Below, in pieces: positions 3,144 to 25,908 of a stretch of 64,000 nucleotides of DNA (positions are counted from its first letter, which is position 1; each line of letters begins with the position of its first letter). The notes under the pieces are model-generated. The model was not told the DNA's origin and did no database searches. It was given only the letters and a program-made list of their open reading frames with translations. The DNA lies in NCBI RefSeq assembly GCF_000384115.1, contig NZ_KB913029.1, forward strand, positions 1,894,907 through 1,958,906, in the 5' to 3' direction. The DNA is from Sporichthya polymorpha DSM 43042. Its GTDB lineage: Bacteria; Actinomycetota; Actinomycetes; Sporichthyales; Sporichthyaceae. The translations under genes were made by a program, and so were the position numbers.

Positions 3144-4957
3144 CCGACACGCACGCTCCGGTCCGCCAGCACTACCGACTCACCCTGGCGATCCTGGTCT
3201 TCTCGTCGATGGCCTACGGCCTGCAGCAGACGCTGGTCGCGCCGGCCCTGCCGGCGATCCAGGAGGATCTCGACGTCTCGACCACCGCGGTCACCTACGT
3301 CCTGACCGCGTTCCTGCTCTCCGCGTCGGTGTCGACGCCGATCATCGGCCGACTCGGCGACATGTTCGGCAAGAAGAAGATGCTCGTCGCGACGCTGGCG
3401 ATGTTCGGCCTCGGGTCGTTGGTGAGTGCCCTCTCGACGTCGATCGAGGTGCTGATCGCCGGCCGGGTCATCCAGGGCGCGGCGGGGGCGATCTTCCCGT
3501 TGGCGTTCGGCATCGTCCGCGACGAGTTCCCGCGCGAGAAGGTCGCCGGCGGCATCGGCCTGGTCAGCGCGATGATCGGCATCGGCGGTGCCACCGGGGT
3601 CGTGTTCTCCGGCGTCATCGTCGACAACCTCGGCTACGAGTGGGTCTTCTGGATCGGGCTGGCGTTCACCAGCTTCACCGTCGTCCTCACGGCCCTGTAC
3701 ATCCCGGAGTCGCCGGTGACGGCGCCGGCGAAGATCGACTGGGGCGGAGCCGCGCTGCTCTCGGGCGGCATGGTCGCGCTGCTGATCGGCGTCAGCGAGG
3801 GCAACTCGTGGGGCTGGCTCGACTCGCGGGTCATCGGGTTGTTCACGGCCGCCGCGCTGCTGCTGGTGTTCTGGGTCGCGTACGAGCAGCGGCACCCGGA
3901 GCCGTTGGTCGACATGCGGATGATGAGCCGCCGGCCGGTGTTCACGACGAACCTGGCGGCCGTGCTGATCGGGTTCGGGATGTACAGCTCGTTCATCCTG
4001 TTCCCGAAGTTCGTCCAGACGCCGTCGGAGGCCGGGTACGGCTTCGGTTCGAGCGTCACCGAGGCGGGCATGTTCCTGCTGCCGAACGCGTGCGCCATGC
4101 TCATCGCGGGCCCGCTGACGGGGCGCCTGACGGCTCGTCACGGGTCGCGGTTCGCCCTGCTGCTCGGCACCGTTCTGGTGCTGGTGTCGTTCATCTTCCT
4201 GGCCGTGTGGCACTCCGACCCGTGGATGATCTACGCGGTCAGCTTCGTCTCCGGCCTCGGCACCGGCTTCGCGTTCTCCGCGATGCCGAACCTGATCATC
4301 GAGGCCGTGGAGCCGACCCAGACCGGCGTCGCCACCGGCATGAACGCAATCATGCGCACGGTCGGCGGAGCGATCGGCGGTCAGGTCGCCGCCGCGGTGC
4401 TGACCGGATACGTCGTCGCGAACACCGGCTTCCCGCGGGAGGCCGGCTACACCCTGACGTTCGTCCTCCTCGCCGCTGCCCTCGGCCTCGCCCTGCTCTG
4501 CGTCCTCGCGATCCCCCGCCCGGGCCGCGAACCCGCCGAGGTCCCGGTCGCCGTCCCGCCGATCGTCGAACCCGCCCTCGCCGAGGCGGTCGAGAACACC
4601 GTCCTCTCACCCGTCGCCCTCACCGGCTCGGTCCGCCGCGGCGGCCTCCCGGTCCCCGGCGCCGTCCTCACCCTCCTCGGCCCCGACGGCCGCGAGGTGA
4701 CCCGGGCCCGCGCCGATGCCGACGGACGGTTCGCCCTCCACCCGGCGGCCGGTCGCTACTACGCCGTCGTCTCCGACACCGGTCGCACCCCGACCGCCCT
4801 AATCGTCGACCTCACCGCCGACCCGGTCGCTGTCGACGTCGAGATGCCCGGCCTCCCGGCGGGATCGGCAGCCCTCCCCGACGTGGCAGGATCGATGCGG
4901 CCGTCGGGTTCGGCGGCCGAGGAGGGCTCGCATAGTGGCCTAGTGCGGCGGTCTTGA
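3140..4957 (+). CDS. MFS transporter with C-terminal carboxypeptidase-regulatory-like domain
   Basis: A 605-residue DHA2-type exporter, paralogous to the two genes upstream. Motif A reads GRLGDMFGKKKML. The transporter ends around residue 455; a beta-sandwich domain follows (about residues 485-575) with GSVRRGGLPVPGAVLTLLG and DADGRFALHPAAGRYYAVV, the usual pattern of carboxypeptidase regulatory-like domains. The GTG start at 3140 overlaps the MarR stop. The last 37 nucleotides lie inside tRNA-Ser(UGA), and the stop codon is the same TGA that forms the tRNA anticodon. The final residues (after about 590) are therefore tRNA-encoded and may be a late read-through extension. Confidence 0.9.
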   Translation: MTDTHAPVRQHYRLTLAILVFSSMAYGLQQTLVAPALPAIQEDLDVSTTAVTYVLTAFLLSASVSTPIIGRLGDMFGKKKMLVATLAMFGLGSLVSALSTSIEVLIAGRVIQGAAGAIFPLAFGIVRDEFPREKVAGGIGLVSAMIGIGGATGVVFSGVIVDNLGYEWVFWIGLAFTSFTVVLTALYIPESPVTAPAKIDWGGAALLSGGMVALLIGVSEGNSWGWLDSRVIGLFTAAALLLVFWVAYEQRHPEPLVDMRMMSRRPVFTTNLAAVLIGFGMYSSFILFPKFVQTPSEAGYGFGSSVTEAGMFLLPNACAMLIAGPLTGRLTARHGSRFALLLGTVLVLVSFIFLAVWHSDPWMIYAVSFVSGLGTGFAFSAMPNLIIEAVEPTQTGVATGMNAIMRTVGGAIGGQVAAAVLTGYVVANTGFPREAGYTLTFVLLAAALGLALLCVLAIPRPGREPAEVPVAVPPIVEPALAEAVENTVLSPVALTGSVRRGGLPVPGAVLTLLGPDGREVTRARADADGRFALHPAAGRYYAVVSDTGRTPTALIVDLTADPVAVDVEMPGLPAGSAALPDVAGSMRPSGSAAEEGSHSGLVRRS

Positions 4958-5009
4958 AAACCGCTAGGGCGAGTGATCGTCCTCCAGGGTTCGAATCCCT
5001 GGCCCTCCG
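4921..5009 (+). tRNA. tRNA-Ser (anticodon UGA)
   Basis: The acceptor arms GGAGGGC (4921-4927) and GCCCTCC (5002-5008) pair fully, followed by discriminator G. The anticodon loop CTTGAAA at 4953-4959 gives UGA. A long variable arm (AGGGCGA/TCGTCCT) marks it as a class II serine tRNA, and the T loop is TTCGAAT. CCA is not encoded. It overlaps the 3' end of the preceding MFS gene on the same strand. Confidence 0.96.
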
Positions 5010-5041
5010 CCGATTTCGAGAGAAACCGATTGACAATCGAT

Positions 5042-5058
5042 AGGTTCCGAGCGAACCT
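5042..5058. promoter_or_regulatory. Inverted repeat before small membrane gene
   Basis: AGGTTC-CGAGC-GAACCT, six-base perfect arms with a 5-nt spacer, ends 6 bp before the ATG of the small membrane protein gene. It could be an operator or a small hairpin; no regulator can be assigned. Confidence 0.3.
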
Positions 5059-5064
5059 CGATAT

Positions 5065-5235
5065 ATGTCGCCACGTGTTCGGGTGCTGGTGCTCCCGGTT
5101 CTGCTGATCGTCCTCGGAGCGTTCCTGGTCGTCGCGGGGGAGGCGGACGACTCCCCGGGGCTCGGGGGGATCGGGCTGATCCTCGCCGCCGCGGCCGCGT
5201 TCTTCGGCTATCGCCGGTACCGGCGGCTCACCTGA
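5065..5235 (+). CDS. Small two-helix membrane protein
   Basis: A 56-codon reading frame (ATG at 5065, TGA at 5233) that encodes two hydrophobic helices: VLVLPVLLIVLGAFLVVAG and IGLILAAAAAFFGY, ending in a basic YRRYRRL tail. That layout resembles many short actinobacterial membrane proteins of unknown role. There is no strong Shine-Dalgarno; an inverted repeat stands where one would be expected. GC-rich third positions support coding. No function can be given. Confidence 0.5.
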   Translation: MSPRVRVLVLPVLLIVLGAFLVVAGEADDSPGLGGIGLILAAAAAFFGYRRYRRLT

Positions 5236-5268
5236 GGCCGGCGTCGAACCGGTCGATCTGACGGGACG

Positions 5269-5877
5269 TCAGACGACGTCAGGCATGCCGGGGAGGCCGT
5301 CGATGCTCCGGGCGTTGGCCTTCGCGCGGTACTCGGCCATCTGGCCGGGGGCGGCGCGATCGCCGAGGACCCGGAGCGTGGTGCGCTCCGCGAGGACGTC
5401 CATCATCGGGACCCCGAAGCCGCAGGCGTCGCTGATTCGCTGCACGTCGACGGTGATCACGGCGCGGGTTCCGGGGTGGGACGGGTGCCGCTTGGCGACC
5501 TCGTCGAACTCCGCGGTGCCGGGCAGGTGGACCGACCCGCGGCCGTGCAGACGCACCACCCGGGGGCTCGCGCCGAACGCGCAGAACATGACGCAGATGC
5601 GGCCGTTCTCACGCAGGTGCGCGATGGTCTCGACCCCGCTGCCGGTGTAGTCGACCCAGCCGACGCGGTGCGGTCCGAGGACCGAGAACGTGTCGTGCCC
5701 GCGCGGCGAGACGTTCACCAGGGCGTCGCCGGCCAATGGCGCCGTCGCCACGAAGAACATCGGCTGCTCGGCGATCCACCCCGCGAGCGTCTCGTCGATC
5801 TCCTCGAACACGGCCCCCACAAGCCCACTGTAGGTCGGGTCCGCGGTCGTCGCGCCGCCCGGCGACTTCGTCGGCAT
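5269..5877 (-). CDS. Pyridoxamine 5'-phosphate oxidase-fold protein (FMN-binding split barrel)
   Basis: A 202-residue protein of the PNPOx-like flavin split-barrel superfamily. The pattern MFFVATAPLAGDALVNVSPRG near residues 40-60, followed by HDTFSVLGPHRVGWVDYTGSG and NGRICVMFCAFGASPRVVRL, is typical of the actinobacterial subgroup whose members bind FMN or F420 and whose substrates are mostly unknown. The ATG at 5877 has no clear Shine-Dalgarno, so a shorter protein starting near residue 23 is possible. It stands alone, convergent to nothing, with a divergent gene 140 bp away. Confidence 0.85.
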   Translation of the reverse strand: MPTKSPGGATTADPTYSGLVGAVFEEIDETLAGWIAEQPMFFVATAPLAGDALVNVSPRGHDTFSVLGPHRVGWVDYTGSGVETIAHLRENGRICVMFCAFGASPRVVRLHGRGSVHLPGTAEFDEVAKRHPSHPGTRAVITVDVQRISDACGFGVPMMDVLAERTTLRVLGDRAAPGQMAEYRAKANARSIDGLPGMPDVV

Positions 5878-18967: not shown

Positions 18968-20152
18968 TCAGAAGTAGTCGAGCAGCGAGGGCACCGGACC
19001 CGCGGTCGCGGCGGTGAGGAACGCGTCGGTGCGCTCGTCGCCGCCGGAGAGCAGGTGCGCCCGGCGCAGCACGGTCGGGGTGCGGGCGCCGGCGTAGATC
19101 GCGGCGAGGCCGCCCGGCCCGAGGTGCACGGTGCCGTCGCCGCCGGGGGTGAGCGTCCCGCGGCCGCCGTCGAGCGTGAGGCGGTGCGGCCCGGCGTTCC
19201 ACGGGCACAGCTCGTCGGCGAGGTCGAGGTCGACCGATCCGGCGAGGGCGTGCGGCCAGCCGCGAGTCTCGACCGCGGCGCGGGCGTCGACCAGGCGCAG
19301 CATCCACGGCTGCTCGGAGTGCGTGCGCGCCCCGGCGAGGCCGGTCACGAGCCACGCCGGGTCGTCGGCGCGCAGCCGCAGGTGCAGGGTCGGCGCGACG
19401 CTCCGCCACGTCCCCAGCATCGCGAGCAGCGCGGTGAGCGCCCGTGGGGTGTGGGCGACGAGGTCCGGCACCGCGAGGACGCCGGCGGAGTCGTAGCCGC
19501 CCTCGCGGTCCCAGCTCGCGTAGCCCTCGACCCCGGCCGGGCCCTCCGCGACGGTGAATCCGTCGTGGCCCGACAGCACCGCGCCCGGGGCGTGGTCGAA
19601 CAGCGGTCCGGTGCGCGCGAGCATCCCCGCGCCGTCCGCGGCCCAGGCGCAGTACGCGCCGAGGATCGCGGGGACGTCACCCTCCTCCGCCGGACGCACC
19701 GTCACATTCGCGGGCCGGCGCTCGCCGGCCAGGGCCACGGTCGGGACCGCCGTCCAGCGCAGGACGCCCGTGAGCTCCCACCCGAGCCGCCGGTAGGGGA
19801 CCGCCGTCGTCGGGAACAGCGCGGAGATCGCCGCACCGCGCTCGCGGGCCTGCGCCAGCACCGGGCCCAGCAGCTCGCGCAGCACACCGCCGCCGCGGAA
19901 CTCGGGCGCGATCGCCACTCCCGCGATGCCGACGGCGGGCACGGCGTGGCCACCGTAGAAGTACGAGTGCTCCAGCCCGACGGCCTTGCCGATCAGCCGC
20001 CCGTCGGCGAAGGCGCCGAGCGCGTGCGCCCCCGGGGCCGGGGTGGGTCGCCGGGACGCCGGCCGCTCCACCGGCCCGCCGAAGGCCAACCGCGAGAGCT
20101 GCCAGGCCGCTGCGTCGTCCTGCTCGCCGAGTGCGCGGATCTCGAACGCCAT
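18968..20152 (-). CDS. Eis-like GNAT N-acetyltransferase
   Basis: A 394-residue Eis-type enzyme: N-terminal GNAT domain (AIAPEFRGGGVLRELLGPVL supplies the acetyl-CoA loop), a second degenerate GNAT domain, and an SCP2-like C-terminal domain. The chain ends in SLLDYF; in Eis proteins the free C-terminal carboxylate of Phe is part of the active site, so this end is diagnostic. Tyr in TAVPYRRLGWEL fits the general acid. Family members acetylate lysines or aminoglycoside amines. It is 43 bp downstream of recQ on the same strand. Confidence 0.92.
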   Translation of the reverse strand: MAFEIRALGEQDDAAAWQLSRLAFGGPVERPASRRPTPAPGAHALGAFADGRLIGKAVGLEHSYFYGGHAVPAVGIAGVAIAPEFRGGGVLRELLGPVLAQARERGAAISALFPTTAVPYRRLGWELTGVLRWTAVPTVALAGERRPANVTVRPAEEGDVPAILGAYCAWAADGAGMLARTGPLFDHAPGAVLSGHDGFTVAEGPAGVEGYASWDREGGYDSAGVLAVPDLVAHTPRALTALLAMLGTWRSVAPTLHLRLRADDPAWLVTGLAGARTHSEQPWMLRLVDARAAVETRGWPHALAGSVDLDLADELCPWNAGPHRLTLDGGRGTLTPGGDGTVHLGPGGLAAIYAGARTPTVLRRAHLLSGGDERTDAFLTAATAGPVPSLLDYF

Positions 20153-20195
20153 GCGGTCATCCTTCCGCTTTTCGAGTCCCGCGGTCAGGCGGCGA

Positions 20196-22307
20196 TCACG
20201 GCAACCGATGACCGACCAGCGGGAGGACGGGGCCCGCTCCCGCGTCGCGCAGGAGCGCGGCCGCGACGGTGAGGGTCCAGCCGGTGCGGCTGACGTCGTC
20301 GACGAGCAGCAGCGGCCCGTCCGGCAGCGCCGGCGCGTCGGGGGAGACCGCGAGCCCGGCGAGCAGGCCGGACACCCGGGCCGCGGAGGCGACGTCCGCC
20401 TCGGGCGCCGGACCGCTGACGGTCAGCACATCGAGCAGGGGCAGCCGCCCGACCGAGGCGATGTGCGCCGCCATCCCCGCGACGCGGCGCGGCCGGCGCC
20501 GGCTCGGGACCGGGACGACCGCGACCGGACGCTCGGCCCAGTCCTTCGCCCAGGCCTTGAGGACGTCGACCAACGCCGTGCGCAGTTCCTCGGACGGGTC
20601 GGCGTCGGGGCCGGCGAGCTCGGCGATCAGCTCCAGCCACGCCGGGTCGTCGGCGAAGGCGACCGCGCGGCCGGGCTCCACCCCGGCGAGGCGGCCCTTG
20701 CGCGCGACGCCGGAGGGCCAGATCTTGCGCGGCTCGAGCACGTGGTGCCGTCCCCGCAGGTGCCGGGTGGCGGCGGCCAGCGCCGCCGGGGAGGGCTCCG
20801 CGCCGGGGGCGGGGAGCTCGCCGGTGCAGACCGAGCACCGCCCGCACGGCCCGGCCGCCGGGTCGTCGAGGGCCTCGGTGAGGACCTCCATCAGGCAGCG
20901 CCGGCCGACGGCGTAGGTCCGCATCAGGTCGGCCTCCGCGCGCCGGGCCTCGACGATGCGGTCGTACTTCGCGGCGTCGTAGGTCCAGCCCGTGCCGGTC
21001 GAGCACCAGCCGGAGCCCTTGCGCTCGACCGCGCCGTCGACGTGCAACGTCTTCAGCAGCGCCTCGAGGCGGCCGCGGCGCAGCCCGGTCTCGGCCTCGA
21101 TCGCGGGCACCGACATCGTCGCGTCGGGGCCCTGCGCCTCGGCGAGCGCGTCGAGCAGTCCGAGGACCTGTCGCGCGGCCTGCGGGTCGGGGATCGTGGC
21201 GGTGGCGAAGTAGTCCCAGATCCGCGGGTCCGACTCCGCCGCCGGCAGCAGGACGCCGACGGCCCCCTGCGCGGCGAGCTCCGGCGGCAGGGCGCGGCCC
21301 GCCCGGCCGACCTGCTGGTAGTACGCGACCGGCGAGTCCGGCGACCCGACGTGGACGCAGAAGCCGAGGTCGGGCTTGTCGTAGCCCATGCCGAGGGCGG
21401 AGGTGGCCACCACGGCCTTGAGCTCGTTGGCGCGCAGGGCGGCCTCGATGCGGGCGCGGTCCTCCGGCGGCGTCGCGCCGGTGTACGCGGCGACGTGGTG
21501 GCCCTGGCTGCGGAGGAACTCCGCGAGCGAGGTGGTGGCGTCGACCGTCAGGCCGTAGACGATCCCCGACCCGGGGAGTGTCGCGAGGGCGTCGGCGACC
21601 CACGCGAACCGCTGCACGCCGCCGAGGCCGGGGACCACCGAGAGCTTGAGGGTGGCCCGGGCGAGCGGACCACGCAGCACGAGGGTCGTGGGGCCGAGCT
21701 GGGCGGCGACGTCCTCGGTCACGCGGCCGTTGGCCGTGGCGGTCGTCGCGAGCACCGGCGCACCCTCGGTCAGGCGCGCAAGCAGGCGGGTCAGGCGCTG
21801 GTAGTCGGGCCGGAAGTCGAAGCCCCAGTCGGAGATGCAGTGGGCCTCGTCGATGACGAGCAGGCCGGCTCCGGCGAGCAACGGGAGCGCGCGGTCGGCG
21901 AACTTCGGGTTGGCCAGGCGCTCCGGCGAGACGAGCAGGACGTCGACGCGGTCGGCGGCGAGGTCGTCGAAGATCGCCTGCCAGTCGTCGACGTTCGCCG
22001 AGTTGACGGTGGCCGCGCGCAGCCCGGCCCGTTCGGCGGCGGCGACCTGATCCCGCATCAGCGCGAGCAGCGGCGAGATGACGAGCGTCGGGCCGCGGCC
22101 GGCGGCGCGCAGGGCGGACGCCGCCGCCCAGTAGACCGCGGACTTGCCCCAGCCGGTCGCCTGCACCAACAGGACCCGGCGTCCGGTGAGCAGCGCGTCG
22201 ACGGCCTCGATCTGGTCCGCGCGCGGGCGGGCGTCCGGCCCGGCGAGAGAGGTCAGGACCTGCGTCAGCGCCCGGTCGCCGGCGGACCTGTCGGCGGAGG
22301 GACTCAC
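20196..22307 (-). CDS. RecQ-like DNA helicase fused to phosphoribosyltransferase domain
   Basis: A 703-residue protein. Helicase motifs: Walker A QATGWGKS (about 49-56), LVIDEAHCISDWGFDF (DEAH 153-156), ATTATAN, ALGMGYDKPD and YYQQVGRAGRA, all RecQ type, then a zinc site with CGRCSVC. The last 200 residues form a second domain: AVVPVPSRRRPRRVAGMAAH and GPLLLVDDVSRTGWTLT, the PRPP-binding loop of type I phosphoribosyltransferases as in ComF. GTG start at 22307 overlaps the DUF2277 stop by GTGA; the longer open frame upstream is the shadow of DUF2277. Probably unwinds DNA in repair; role of the PRTase part unknown. Confidence 0.93.
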   Translation of the reverse strand: MSPSADRSAGDRALTQVLTSLAGPDARPRADQIEAVDALLTGRRVLLVQATGWGKSAVYWAAASALRAAGRGPTLVISPLLALMRDQVAAAERAGLRAATVNSANVDDWQAIFDDLAADRVDVLLVSPERLANPKFADRALPLLAGAGLLVIDEAHCISDWGFDFRPDYQRLTRLLARLTEGAPVLATTATANGRVTEDVAAQLGPTTLVLRGPLARATLKLSVVPGLGGVQRFAWVADALATLPGSGIVYGLTVDATTSLAEFLRSQGHHVAAYTGATPPEDRARIEAALRANELKAVVATSALGMGYDKPDLGFCVHVGSPDSPVAYYQQVGRAGRALPPELAAQGAVGVLLPAAESDPRIWDYFATATIPDPQAARQVLGLLDALAEAQGPDATMSVPAIEAETGLRRGRLEALLKTLHVDGAVERKGSGWCSTGTGWTYDAAKYDRIVEARRAEADLMRTYAVGRRCLMEVLTEALDDPAAGPCGRCSVCTGELPAPGAEPSPAALAAATRHLRGRHHVLEPRKIWPSGVARKGRLAGVEPGRAVAFADDPAWLELIAELAGPDADPSEELRTALVDVLKAWAKDWAERPVAVVPVPSRRRPRRVAGMAAHIASVGRLPLLDVLTVSGPAPEADVASAARVSGLLAGLAVSPDAPALPDGPLLLVDDVSRTGWTLTVAAALLRDAGAGPVLPLVGHRLP

Positions 22308-22576
22308 GCGTTGCCGTACCGCACCGCGGCGCGCGCCTTGGCCTTGGCCGCCTCGACCTCGCGGTCCTTCGGTGGCGCGGAGGTGACGAGCTCGTCGAGC
22401 AGCTGGGCCGAGGCGGCCGTCACCGCGGCGACCGCACGCTCGAAGGCAGCGGCGTTGGCGGCGGACGGCTTGGTCGTCCCGCTGATCTTGCGCACGTACT
22501 GCAGCGCGGCGGCGGCGATCTCGTCCTGCGTCGCGGGCGGCGCGAAGTTGTGCAGGGTCCGGATGTTGCGGCACAT
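22304..22576 (-). CDS. DUF2277 family protein
   Basis: A 90-residue protein, MCRNIRTLHNFAPPATQDEI at the start and ALQYVRKISGTTKPS in the middle, matching the small DUF2277 family common in actinobacteria. Helical, no membrane segment, function unknown. It is the first gene of an operon with the RecQ-type helicase (GTGA overlap) and probably Eis, which hints at a link to DNA transactions. The ATG at 22576 begins the conserved MCRNI start. Confidence 0.9.
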   Translation of the reverse strand: MCRNIRTLHNFAPPATQDEIAAAALQYVRKISGTTKPSAANAAAFERAVAAVTAASAQLLDELVTSAPPKDREVEAAKAKARAAVRYGNA

Positions 22577-22691
22577 GCGGCCCACCCTAGGCGTGCGAAC
22601 CGACACCGCGCCCGGCGAGCTTTCGCCCTGTGGACAAACCCGATGATTCGGCCGCCGACCGAGTGGGTATCCCGTCGGAACGTCCTGGGGA

Positions 22692-22709
22692 GGGCGGCGC
22701 CGGGGGGCG
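22692..22709 (+). repeat. 18-bp leader repeat, copy 1
   Basis: GGGCGGCGCCGGGGGGCG occurs here, 15 bp before the first lipoprotein ATG, and again at 24449-24466 before the second lipoprotein. It marks the duplicated unit and may belong to a shared promoter or leader. Confidence 0.6.
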
Positions 22710-22723
22710 CGAGAGGGGGGCGC

Positions 22724-23275
22724 ATGCGCTCGTTTGGGGGGAAGACTGTGTCCGTACGTTCTTGGCGCGGGGTCGCGGCCGGCGTGGCGCTGGCCGTGCC
22801 GTTGGGGCTCGCGGGCTGTTCCGGTGGCACCACGGGGCTGGCCGCCGCCGACGCCACCGGCCTGCACGGCCGGGTGGCCGCGATGCGCGCGGCCGCGGTG
22901 CTCGACAACCCCGACGCGGCGCGCACCGCGCTGGCGCAGTTCCGGGCCGACGTCGCGAGCCTGCTCGAGAGCGGGCAGCTCACGCCCGACCAGGCCGTGA
23001 CGCTGCTCGCCCACGCGGACTCCGTCGCGGAGCAGATCTCCGCCGAGGTCCGCCCGCCGACACCCGAGCCGACCCCGAAGCCGAAGGTCGTGGCGAAGCC
23101 GCAGCCGAAGCGGAAGCAGACCGTCGCCCGGACTCCGGACCGGGACGAGCTGTCCTCGTTCTGGACGCTGCTGCGCAAGCGCATCGAGCAACGGATGGAC
23201 GAAGAAGCCCGCGAGGGGTGGCGGGACCACGACCGCGACCGGGACGACCGCCGCGACGATCGGGGGCGCGCATGA
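22724..23275 (+). CDS. Lipoprotein partner of kinase, copy 1
   Basis: A 183-residue lipoprotein with lipobox LAGC after VAAGVALAVPLG. The body is a helical unit LHGRVAAMRAAAVLDNPDAA followed by LAQFRADVASLLESGQLTPD and LLAHADSVAEQI, then a Thr/Pro/Lys linker and a charged tail (DRDRDDRRDDRGRA). A second copy of this protein lies at 24492. Start is ATG 22724 (GAGAGGGGGG before it) or GTG 22748. It overlaps the kinase gene by ATGA, so the two products are made together; the lipoprotein probably works outside the membrane next to the kinase. Confidence 0.82.
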   Translation: MRSFGGKTVSVRSWRGVAAGVALAVPLGLAGCSGGTTGLAAADATGLHGRVAAMRAAAVLDNPDAARTALAQFRADVASLLESGQLTPDQAVTLLAHADSVAEQISAEVRPPTPEPTPKPKVVAKPQPKRKQTVARTPDRDELSSFWTLLRKRIEQRMDEEAREGWRDHDRDRDDRRDDRGRA

Positions 23276-24336
23276 CCGCCGGAACGGAACCGCTGACCGC
23301 GGGATACGTGCACGTCGTCGCCGGCCAGCGGTTCGGCCGCGACGGCCGGTACCTGTTGCTGCGCCTGCTCGGCACCGGCGGGATGGCCTCGGTGTGGGTC
23401 GCCGACGACACGCGCACGGGCCGCGAGGTGGCGCTGAAGATCCTCTCGGACTCGCTCGCGCTCGACCCCGCGTTCGTCGCGCGGTTCGCGCGGGAGGCGA
23501 AGCTCGCGGCCTCGCTCGACCACCCGGGTGCGGTCCGGATCCTCGACGCCTTCGTCGAGGGCGGGCCCGAGCGGCCCTATCTCGCGATGGAGTACGTCCC
23601 CGGCGGGACGCTGGCCGACCGCATCGAGACCTGCGGGCTGGACCGCTGGGATCTCACCGCGCTCGCGCGCGACCTGCTCGGGACGCTGACGCACCTGCAC
23701 GACGCGGGGGTGCTGCACCGCGACCTCAAGCCGGCCAACGTGCTGCTCGGCACCGACGGCCGGGTGCGGCTCACCGACTTCGGCGTCGCGCAGCTCGCGG
23801 ACGGCACGCGGGTCACCGGCACGGGCGAACTGATCGGCACGCAGCGCTACCTGGCGCCCGAGGTCCTCGCCGGCGGCCCCGCGGACGTTCGCAGCGACCT
23901 GTACTCGTGCGGGGTGCTGCTCGCCGAGTGCGCGGGCGAGGACGTCTCGCCGCCGGTGCAGGCGCTGATCGCCCGGCTCACGCAGGACGACCCGGCGCGG
24001 CGACCGGCGTCGGCCGTCGAGGCGCTCGCCCTGCTCGCGGGCGGGGAGCCGACGTCACCGATCGTCGCCGCGCGGCCGAGCATCCCGGCCCAGGTGCGGC
24101 CGGCGCCGGCACCGACGCTGCCCGTCCGGTCCGCGCCGCCGCTGCGGACGGCCGGACACACGCCGCCGCGAGCGCTGATCGCCGGGGTGGCCGCCGCGGT
24201 CGTGCTGGTCACGGCGGGTGTCGTGCTCAGTTCCGGCAAGTCGGAAGCGCCCCGTGATGTCCCGAATCCGATGCAGGGTTCGCTGTCGCAGCAGTTCGAC
24301 GGGCTGGACGCCGCGATCGAGGCGGTCCGTCGCTGA
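23272..24336 (+). CDS. Transmembrane Ser/Thr protein kinase
   Basis: A 354-residue Hanks-type kinase with all key residues: glycine loop LGTGGMASVW (33-42), VALK lysine 56, HRD 149-151 with HRDLKPAN, DFG 169-171, APE 196-198. A Pro-rich linker (about 250-295) leads to one membrane helix (about 298-318) and a short outer tail ending LSQQFDGLDAAIEAVRR. It is coupled to the lipoprotein upstream and followed by a degenerate copy of the same two-gene unit. Likely a PknB-like sensor kinase, with the lipoprotein as candidate extracellular partner. Confidence 0.93.
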   Translation: MTAGTEPLTAGYVHVVAGQRFGRDGRYLLLRLLGTGGMASVWVADDTRTGREVALKILSDSLALDPAFVARFAREAKLAASLDHPGAVRILDAFVEGGPERPYLAMEYVPGGTLADRIETCGLDRWDLTALARDLLGTLTHLHDAGVLHRDLKPANVLLGTDGRVRLTDFGVAQLADGTRVTGTGELIGTQRYLAPEVLAGGPADVRSDLYSCGVLLAECAGEDVSPPVQALIARLTQDDPARRPASAVEALALLAGGEPTSPIVAARPSIPAQVRPAPAPTLPVRSAPPLRTAGHTPPRALIAGVAAAVVLVTAGVVLSSGKSEAPRDVPNPMQGSLSQQFDGLDAAIEAVRR

Positions 24337-24448
24337 GAGGTGATTCTGAGTGACTTTCACGATGCACACGAATGCCGCAAGTCCCGGGACGAACGGCTCC
24401 GTCTCGTGCTTTCGTGGATGCAGAGACACCGTCAGAACGCCCGGATCC

Positions 24449-24466
24449 GGGCGGCGCCGGGGGGCG
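24449..24466 (+). repeat. 18-bp leader repeat, copy 2
   Basis: Identical to the 18 bases at 22692-22709; stands 25 bp before the second lipoprotein ATG. It shows that the duplication of the lipoprotein-kinase unit included its leader. Confidence 0.6.
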
Positions 24467-24491
24467 TTGTAGGCGACGGAGGGGGACGCGC

Positions 24492-25124
24492 ATGCTTGCG
24501 CGACAAGGTCGACGGCTGCCCGCGTGCGGTCGGATGGTGGTGGCGGGCCTCGCCGTGCTCGCGTTGGCGGGGTGCAACGGCGCCTCGACCACGCTGGGTG
24601 CGGCGTCGCAGGAGCTGCTGCACGAGCGCGTGGCGCAGGTCCGCGCCGCCGCGGACGGCTCCGACCGCGACGCGGCGATCGCGGCGGTGGAGTCGTTCCG
24701 CGCCGAGGTCCAGCGGCTGCTCGCCGCCGGGGAGCTGACCGACAGCGAGGCCGCGGGTCTGCTCGCGCACGCCGACGCGATCGCGACGAAGGTGATGACC
24801 GACGTCGTCGTCCCGACGCCGGAGCCCACTCCGACTGCGACCCCGACTCCCACGCCCGAGCCGGCGCCGGTCGCGGCTCCGGTCACGCCGGCGCTGAGCC
24901 CGGAGCAGATCCTGCAGGGCGAGACCGGTGCCCGGTTCAGCGAGCTGCTCCGCGAGCGGCTCGCGGAGTACATCGAGACGCGGCTCGCGGAGCGTGAGGC
25001 GCAGGAGAAGGCCGAGCGCGAGAAGGCCGAGCGCGAGAAGGCCGAGAAGAAGGCCGAGAAGAAGGCCGACCAGAAGAAGGACCGGGACCGCGATCAGCGT
25101 TCGGGAGGCTCCGGTGCGCACTGA
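24492..25124 (+). CDS. Lipoprotein partner of pseudokinase, copy 2
   Basis: A 210-residue lipoprotein, lipobox LAGC after VVAGLAVLAL. The helical unit LHERVAQVRAAADGSDRDAA and LLAAGELTDSEAAGLLAHAD aligns residue for residue with the first lipoprotein. It then has a (TPEP)n linker, a second helical part (LSPEQILQGETGARFSELL) and a highly charged Glu/Lys/Ala coiled-coil tail (about 170-200). ATG 24492 follows GGAGGGGGA. The pseudokinase frame begins inside its last codons (11-bp overlap), so translation is coupled as in copy 1. Confidence 0.8.
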   Translation: MLARQGRRLPACGRMVVAGLAVLALAGCNGASTTLGAASQELLHERVAQVRAAADGSDRDAAIAAVESFRAEVQRLLAAGELTDSEAAGLLAHADAIATKVMTDVVVPTPEPTPTATPTPTPEPAPVAAPVTPALSPEQILQGETGARFSELLRERLAEYIETRLAEREAQEKAEREKAEREKAEKKAEKKADQKKDRDRDQRSGGSGAH

Positions 25125-25908
25125 CCACCTCGGCGGGACGCTCGCCGACCGGCTCCAGGCCGGCCCGCTCGGGCGGGACGAGCTGACCCAGCTCGCCCGC
25201 GACCTGCTCGACATGCTGGCCCAGCTCCACGCCAAGGGCACCGTGCACCGGGATCTGCGTCCCGACACCGTCCGCCTCGACGGCGAGGGCCGGCTGCACA
25301 GCTCGAAGATCGGCACCCAGCGCGGGCCCGCTCCGAGCGGCGACGACGTCAGCGCCGACCTGCTCGCCTGCGGGCAGGTGCTCTCCGCCGCCGCGGGCCC
25401 GTACGCCTCCGCGCCGGTGCTGGTCCTGATCGGCATGCTCACCGCCGACGAGTCCGTCCTCCGTCCCGGCTCCGCGGCCGAGGCCCTCGCCCTCCTCGGC
25501 GGCGCCCCGGTCCCGCGGGCCCGGACCGTCGACGACGTCCCGTTCCCGCCGGTCGCGGCTGTTCCCGTCGCCGAACCGCCGCCGCTGTTCCCGCTCGCGG
25601 CCCCGGCCGCTGCTCCGCAAGCTCAGCCGACCCCGGCCGCCACCGAGTTGCCGCTGGCGCTGCCGACCGCCGCTCCGGTGCCGGCCGCTCCGCTCCCGCC
25701 GGAGTATCGCTACCGGCGCCGCCCGAGCGCGAAGATCGTCCTCGCCGTCGTCGGGGTGCTGCTGGCGGTCGGCGCCACCGTCGGTGTGGTCGTCGCGACC
25801 ACCGGCGGCAGCGACGACCCCGGCACCGAGATCCCCCCGCCCGCGGCGACCTCGCTCGACCAGCAGCTCTCCGACCTCGACGGCGTCATCGACACCCTCG
25901 GCGACTGA
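25114..25908 (+). CDS. Pseudokinase-like membrane protein
   Basis: A 264-residue relative of the kinase at 23272 that starts within the kinase C-lobe. The N-lobe, glycine loop and catalytic lysine are absent. HRD remains (45-47) but reads HRDLRPDT instead of HRDLKPAN, and the DFG site is replaced by LHSSKIG. Matching landmarks include GGTLADRL, LARDLLDMLAQLH and, at the end, SLDQQLSDLDGVIDTLG. A Pro/Ala linker leads to one helix at about 207-231. GTG 25114 follows GGGAGG. It cannot bind ATP in the usual way and is probably a regulatory or scaffold partner, or a decaying copy. Confidence 0.8.
   Translation: MRTDHLGGTLADRLQAGPLGRDELTQLARDLLDMLAQLHAKGTVHRDLRPDTVRLDGEGRLHSSKIGTQRGPAPSGDDVSADLLACGQVLSAAAGPYASAPVLVLIGMLTADESVLRPGSAAEALALLGGAPVPRARTVDDVPFPPVAAVPVAEPPPLFPLAAPAAAPQAQPTPAATELPLALPTAAPVPAAPLPPEYRYRRRPSAKIVLAVVGVLLAVGATVGVVVATTGGSDDPGTEIPPPAATSLDQQLSDLDGVIDTLGD

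Follow-up and report, generated by a model that had tools for sequence, protein, structure and literature searches.

Tandem lipoprotein-kinase units in Sporichthya and a conserved kinase C-lobe remnant that may belong to a split sensor

Closest described systems

In the GlnH-GlnX-PknG system, the nearest functional analogue of the locus described here, a lipoprotein encoded together with the kinase (GlnH) senses the outside and controls a Ser/Thr kinase across the membrane; this feature of GlnH is the likeness (PMC6069109, PMC9769921). GlnH is a solute-binding protein, whereas the lipoprotein domain at our locus is predicted to be a small helical bundle (PMC6069109, PMC9769921). PknG is cytosolic and needs the separate membrane protein GlnX, whereas here the kinase itself crosses the membrane.

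The second kinase gene of our locus, kin2, resembles the MviN pseudokinase domain of the ActPs3 family in being actinobacterial, non-catalytic and membrane-linked, with an activation-loop deletion (PMC12599244). However, MviN keeps both lobes and dimerizes via conserved N-lobe residues (PMC12599244), whereas kin2 lacks that lobe altogether and is paired with a lipoprotein. We rejected membership of kin2 in ActPs3 because an N-lobe dimer interface is impossible in a protein that lacks the lobe. About 60% of ActPs1 pseudokinases are without helix G, as are kin1 and kin2, and ActPs1 proteins are two-lobed, have all three catalytic motifs substituted and often carry PQQ repeats (PMC12599244). Unlike these, kin1 is catalytically complete and kin2 is without an N-lobe. 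None of the seven bacterial pseudokinase families in a 2025 review is described as N-lobe-less, and lipoproteins go unmentioned there (PMC12599244).

Layout of the locus and its products

Two tandem lipoprotein-kinase units lie at positions 22724-25908 of the window (the whole 64,000-nucleotide stretch of DNA analysed) in the 5.5 Mb single-contig genome of Sporichthya polymorpha DSM 43042 (G000). Their four genes, lpp1, kin1, lpp2 and kin2, share one direction (Table 1). The initial annotation had proposed a tandem duplication marked by an 18-base leader repeat, and every feature it described is present. The 18-mer GGGCGGCGCCGGGGGGCG is exact at both 22692 and 24449; allowing up to one mismatch, a search of all 5.5 Mb gave no further copy, so the repeat is not due to chance. 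DNA homology between the units covers the leader, the lipoprotein domain and the C-lobe, and picks up again in kin2 precisely at the kin1 hinge (GGTLADR). The overlap of lpp1 and kin1 is 4 nt (ATGA); kin2 starts with a GTG within lpp2, overlapping it by 11 nt, and a third species (G001) has an ATG at the same position. An 886-aa open frame upstream (19986-22646, plus strand) runs antisense to recQ (20196-22574, minus strand) and is most likely a high-GC shadow frame.

Table 1. Features of the locus, with positions in the window.
Feature	Position	Strand	Description
Unit 1 promoter	22645..22670	+	Putative SigB-type promoter GATTCG-N14-GGGTAT
Unit 1 leader hairpins	22681..22710	+	Two predicted tandem hairpins, including the 18-base repeat (22692-22709)
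lpp1	22724..23275	+	Predicted lipoprotein; LAGC lipobox, helical domain, charged tail
kin1	23272..24336	+	Predicted transmembrane Hanks-type Ser/Thr kinase; full catalytic motif set, no alphaG
kin1 membrane helix	24172..24228	+	
kin1 tail helix	24277..24333	+	Extracytoplasmic, GSLSQQFDGLDAAIEAVRR
Unit 2 leader hairpins	24438..24467	+	
lpp2	24492..25124	+	Predicted lipoprotein; three-helix domain (about 24600-24803), Pro/Thr linker, long charged helix
kin2	25114..25908	+	Kinase remnant reduced to C-lobe, membrane helix and tail; begins at the hinge
kin2 C-lobe	25129..25506	+	No DFG, APE or alphaG
kin2 membrane helix	25735..25791	+	
kin2 tail helix	25855..25902	+	TSLDQQLSDLDGVIDTLG, identical in the closest species (G002)

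The kin1 product scored 146 bits against the Pkinase profile (cut-off 31.7), in an alignment that spans the N-lobe and most of the C-lobe, and its sequence contains GTGGMA, VALK, HRDLKPAN, DFG and APE. Profile score and the Lys, HRD, DFG and APE motifs together place it among the Hanks-type Ser/Thr kinases. It is not a PASTA kinase of the PknB/Stk1 kind: it reached 224 bits against NF033483, where the cut-off is 450, gave no PASTA match and has an outer part of 35 residues. A single membrane helix and a tail of 35-38 residues are common to kin1 and kin2. Helix alphaG is missing from both and from two related Sporichthya paralogues; all Sporichthya kinases of the kin1/kin2 clade lack it (paralogues at L043 and L044), kin1 despite its intact catalytic motifs.

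The initial annotation also described the second kinase as having lost the N-lobe, the catalytic Lys and DFG, with HRDLRPDT in place of HRDLKPAN, and the kin2 sequence bears this out. Its N-terminus, GGTLADRL, is the hinge of kin1, and neither blastn nor tblastn detected an N-lobe remnant upstream at the DNA or protein level. With the N-lobe absent, kin2 has no Gly-rich loop, beta3 Lys or alphaC; HSSKIG stands at the DFG position, and the APE segment is missing in G000 and G002, while G001 retains YLAPEV. Against Pkinase, kin2 scored 18.2 bits, aligned to profile positions 82-134 only. We rejected it as a Hanks-type Ser/Thr kinase on this sub-threshold score and the missing N-lobe and catalytic Lys and DFG. 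Having lost DFG and the N-lobe, the half that binds ATP, kin2 cannot be an ordinary ATP-using kinase. In the broad sense it counts as a bacterial pseudokinase, since Lys and DFG are absent, the HRD Asp is present and it forms a clade with kin1. It is more exactly termed a "kinase C-lobe remnant", as kin2 is without the usual two-lobed pseudokinase domain. In the predicted structure a C-lobe with pLDDT mostly 90-97 is followed by one helix in the membrane and one in the tail, and structural matches of the C-lobe model are kinase folds. Because full kinases were in the predictor's input alignment, a good fold was partly expected, and the model indicates compatibility with a folded C-lobe rather than proof of one.

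Both lpp1 and lpp2 carry a LAGC lipobox and are on this basis predicted lipoproteins; the lipobox Cys is invariant in an alignment of 25 such sequences. The model of lpp2 has a three-helix domain. In a fold comparison aimed at the FIMAH family (PF22888), it aligned with the GH92 enzyme 7nsn (Z 9.2, rmsd 2.1, 74 residues), but the scores of bS20 and further helical bundles are the same, so these structural matches do not exclude other folds; a search of solved structures by sequence gave weak bS20 matches only. By profile score lpp1 and lpp2 were not assigned to FIMAH, with 15.0 and 17.0 bits against a gathering score of 24.8; 13 of the 25 lipoproteins match PF22888 weakly (best 4.7e-4). That a missing first FIMAH helix might come from the kinase tail is a guess, since the fused kinase-lipoprotein proteins described below have no FIMAH match. 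A GlnH-like solute-binding protein was likewise rejected (no SBP_bac_3 Pfam match, three-helix model), as were NCBIfam matches, which were to unrelated low-complexity-rich models far under the cut-off.

The promoter pattern of unit 1 resembles promoters of Streptomyces SigB homologues (PMC8346170). A scan of both strands of the 64 kb for the pattern GnnT-N15/16-GGGTAY gave a single match, the putative unit 1 promoter itself, and a promoter of this GATTCG-N14-GGGTAT type is kept in unit 1 of G002 and in the single unit of G001. In G000 and G002, unit 2 lacks precisely the GGGTA -10 stretch (at about 24426, just upstream of the leader hairpins), a loss that would fit co-transcription with unit 1. 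Unit 2 of G001 has its own GGGTAC element. All leaders can form two adjacent hairpins, whose base pairs hold in 4 of 4 distinct sequences; at three pairs both bases have changed, which is suggestive of conserved hairpins among these four sequences. Searches of the locus found no Rfam family above threshold and no sigma-70 promoter; terminator-like matches were discounted, all being on the minus strand within coding DNA.

Retention of the second unit in Sporichthya

An N-lobe-less kin2 ortholog occurs in all three Sporichthya genomes compared (G000, G001, G002), one of which is a low-coverage MAG. Unit 2 has open frames in the three species, with indels in multiples of three. We estimated omega by pairwise codon maximum likelihood (GY94-type, F3x4, own script) against G002, the closest species. 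Values were 0.050 for kin2 (C-lobe 0.043), 0.064 for lpp2, 0.042 for kin1 and 0.087 for lpp1, and likelihood-ratio tests against omega = 1 gave 122 for kin2 and 82 for lpp2. The neighbouring ABC and recQ genes gave 0.017 and 0.005. Against G001, kin2 omega was 0.086, a comparison in which synonymous changes in lpp2 are saturated. Purifying selection on unit 2, weaker than on housekeeping genes, is strongly supported. The prediction that the second pair is retained rather than decaying at random thus held: in the two relatives compared, unit 2 is neither missing, frameshifted nor neutral.

That kin2 is a decaying pseudogene, in frame by chance, could be argued from the loss of the N-lobe and DFG, of the APE segment too in G000 and G002, and from its long stem branch. 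We consider this very improbable given the low omega, the test statistic and the frame kept in three species; on these grounds, and for lack of an N-lobe remnant, we rejected decay and a hidden frameshift alike. A sequencing or assembly error hiding the N-lobe is more improbable still, as three independent genomes share the identical N-lobe-less start and no trace of the lobe was found at either level.

In the kinase tree, the three kin2 sequences cluster together (100/100) and kin1 joins them (99/98); further paralogues are formate-dehydrogenase-linked kinases and one soluble kinase. The paralogous lipoprotein-kinase unit (L043 4197-5900, G000:C1 about 5298200-5299900; also L040 and L042) adjoins formate dehydrogenase and moeA-like genes and is kept in all three genomes. 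The related kinase without alphaG, membrane helix or lipoprotein neighbour is at L044, about 4900-5690 (G000:C1:556890-557771), and at L041.

The order in G001 (Sporichthya MAG MGR_bin378) is recQ - lpp2 - kin2, with one leader and no unit 1, on a 3,139 bp contig at 2.5x coverage whose end cuts kin2 before the membrane helix. No kin1 ortholog was found in this 94% complete assembly. Unit 1 was probably lost in the G001 lineage, because kin1 cannot descend from a gene without an N-lobe. This arrangement bears on the proposal in the initial annotation that the lipoproteins are outer-face sensors of an active/inactive kinase pair, a proposal that our results support only in part. If kin2 worked only with neighbouring kin1, one would point to the tandem layout, the sister relationship of kin1 and kin2, the shared leader and the lost -10 element of unit 2 in G000 and G002, which suggests co-transcription; yet in the MAG unit 2 adjoins recQ by itself and has a GGGTAC element, and the assembly yielded no kin1 ortholog. 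A dedicated pair is therefore rather unlikely in our view: kin2 need not be a partner of kin1 alone and may act with another kinase.

Kinase-lipoprotein pairing across actinobacteria and the role of kin2

The part of that proposal that gained support is the lipoprotein as outer-face partner of the kinase, through class-wide adjacency and natural fusions. We ran a lipoprotein-domain profile (A4) against 394 genomes of the class and examined 17 loci outside the genus at E < 1e-8 (L061, L071-L086), leaving out one equally strong match (G281:C62). A transmembrane Ser/Thr kinase adjoins the lipoprotein in 17/17. The kinase domain is in view at 16 of them; at L080 the kinase gene is truncated by the contig start, and the membrane helix and tail are visible. 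At 15 of the 16 junctions that could be measured, the stop of the kinase gene shares 4 nt with the start of the lipoprotein gene. The kinase gene comes first at these loci and the lipoprotein gene second, opposite to Sporichthya, and the kinases end in a short extracytoplasmic helix such as TLGDHLQELQKSVAP or PLEKDMQDLEKLVRR. A4 includes six sequences from other genera, which a genus-only profile (A1) had found, and the loci of these six are therefore not independent of the A4 search; neither search selected for a neighbouring kinase.

Three genomes (L090, L092, L095) encode fusions, single proteins of about 506 residues in the order kinase, membrane helix, tail motif VPSVGGKVGNDLNTLTDLV, lipoprotein-type domain and Pro-rich end, which match the lipoprotein-domain profile at E 3e-6 to 2e-5. 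The fusions and the strict adjacency lead us to infer that the kinase tail and the lipoprotein domain act together. The pairing is a widespread actinobacterial module. It seems to be undescribed so far; we found no description in a literature search covering few subscription papers.

Each unit would then be a split receptor, with a small helical domain on an outer-face lipoprotein and a single-pass kinase whose sole outer part is the short tail helix. Tail and lipoprotein may bind each other and relay a signal from the envelope into the cell. The unit was duplicated in the Sporichthya ancestor, after which kin2 lost its N-lobe and DFG, while purifying selection continued on the C-lobe, membrane helix, tail and lipoprotein. 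The C-lobe may bind an active kinase from its own clade, or that kinase's substrates, and thereby buffer or direct them. Candidate partners are kin1 and the formate-dehydrogenase-linked paralogue; all three species carry the latter. That G001 has kept unit 2 in the absence of unit 1 speaks for a partner besides kin1. The HRD loop of kin2 drifts between orthologues (HRDLRPDT versus HCDLNPVS), while HSSKIG.QRG and DASAPVLVLIGMLTA, plus the tail in G000 and G002, are conserved. Such drift with other C-lobe motifs kept is expected of a non-catalytic role, and lost constraint on the HRD loop in an otherwise conserved C-lobe points to binding.

Selection might instead act on lpp2, the membrane anchor and the tail, leaving the C-lobe as a passive scaffold or phosphorylation target like the pseudokinase tail of MviN. 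Strong conservation of lpp2, the membrane helix and the tail fits this, and MviN provides a precedent for scaffolding (PMC12599244), but the low omega of the C-lobe itself and its conserved kin2-specific motifs make a passive C-lobe unlikely. On balance we lean towards kin2 as a non-catalytic receptor within a split tail-and-lipoprotein sensor, modulating related active kinases.

The activators of bacterial transmembrane Ser/Thr kinases are, to our knowledge, largely unknown. A conserved, translationally coupled lipoprotein, together with natural fusions, offers a concrete and testable sensor for a whole class of such kinases. As a C-lobe only that is nonetheless under strong purifying selection, kin2 provides a clean test, set up by nature, of the non-catalytic functions of kinase domains. 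More tentatively, actinobacteria might hold widespread split-receptor kinases whose sensor is complete only when the tail helix joins the lipoprotein, with Sporichthya kin2 perhaps a membrane-bound C-lobe left after loss of the catalytic half, tuning its active sisters.
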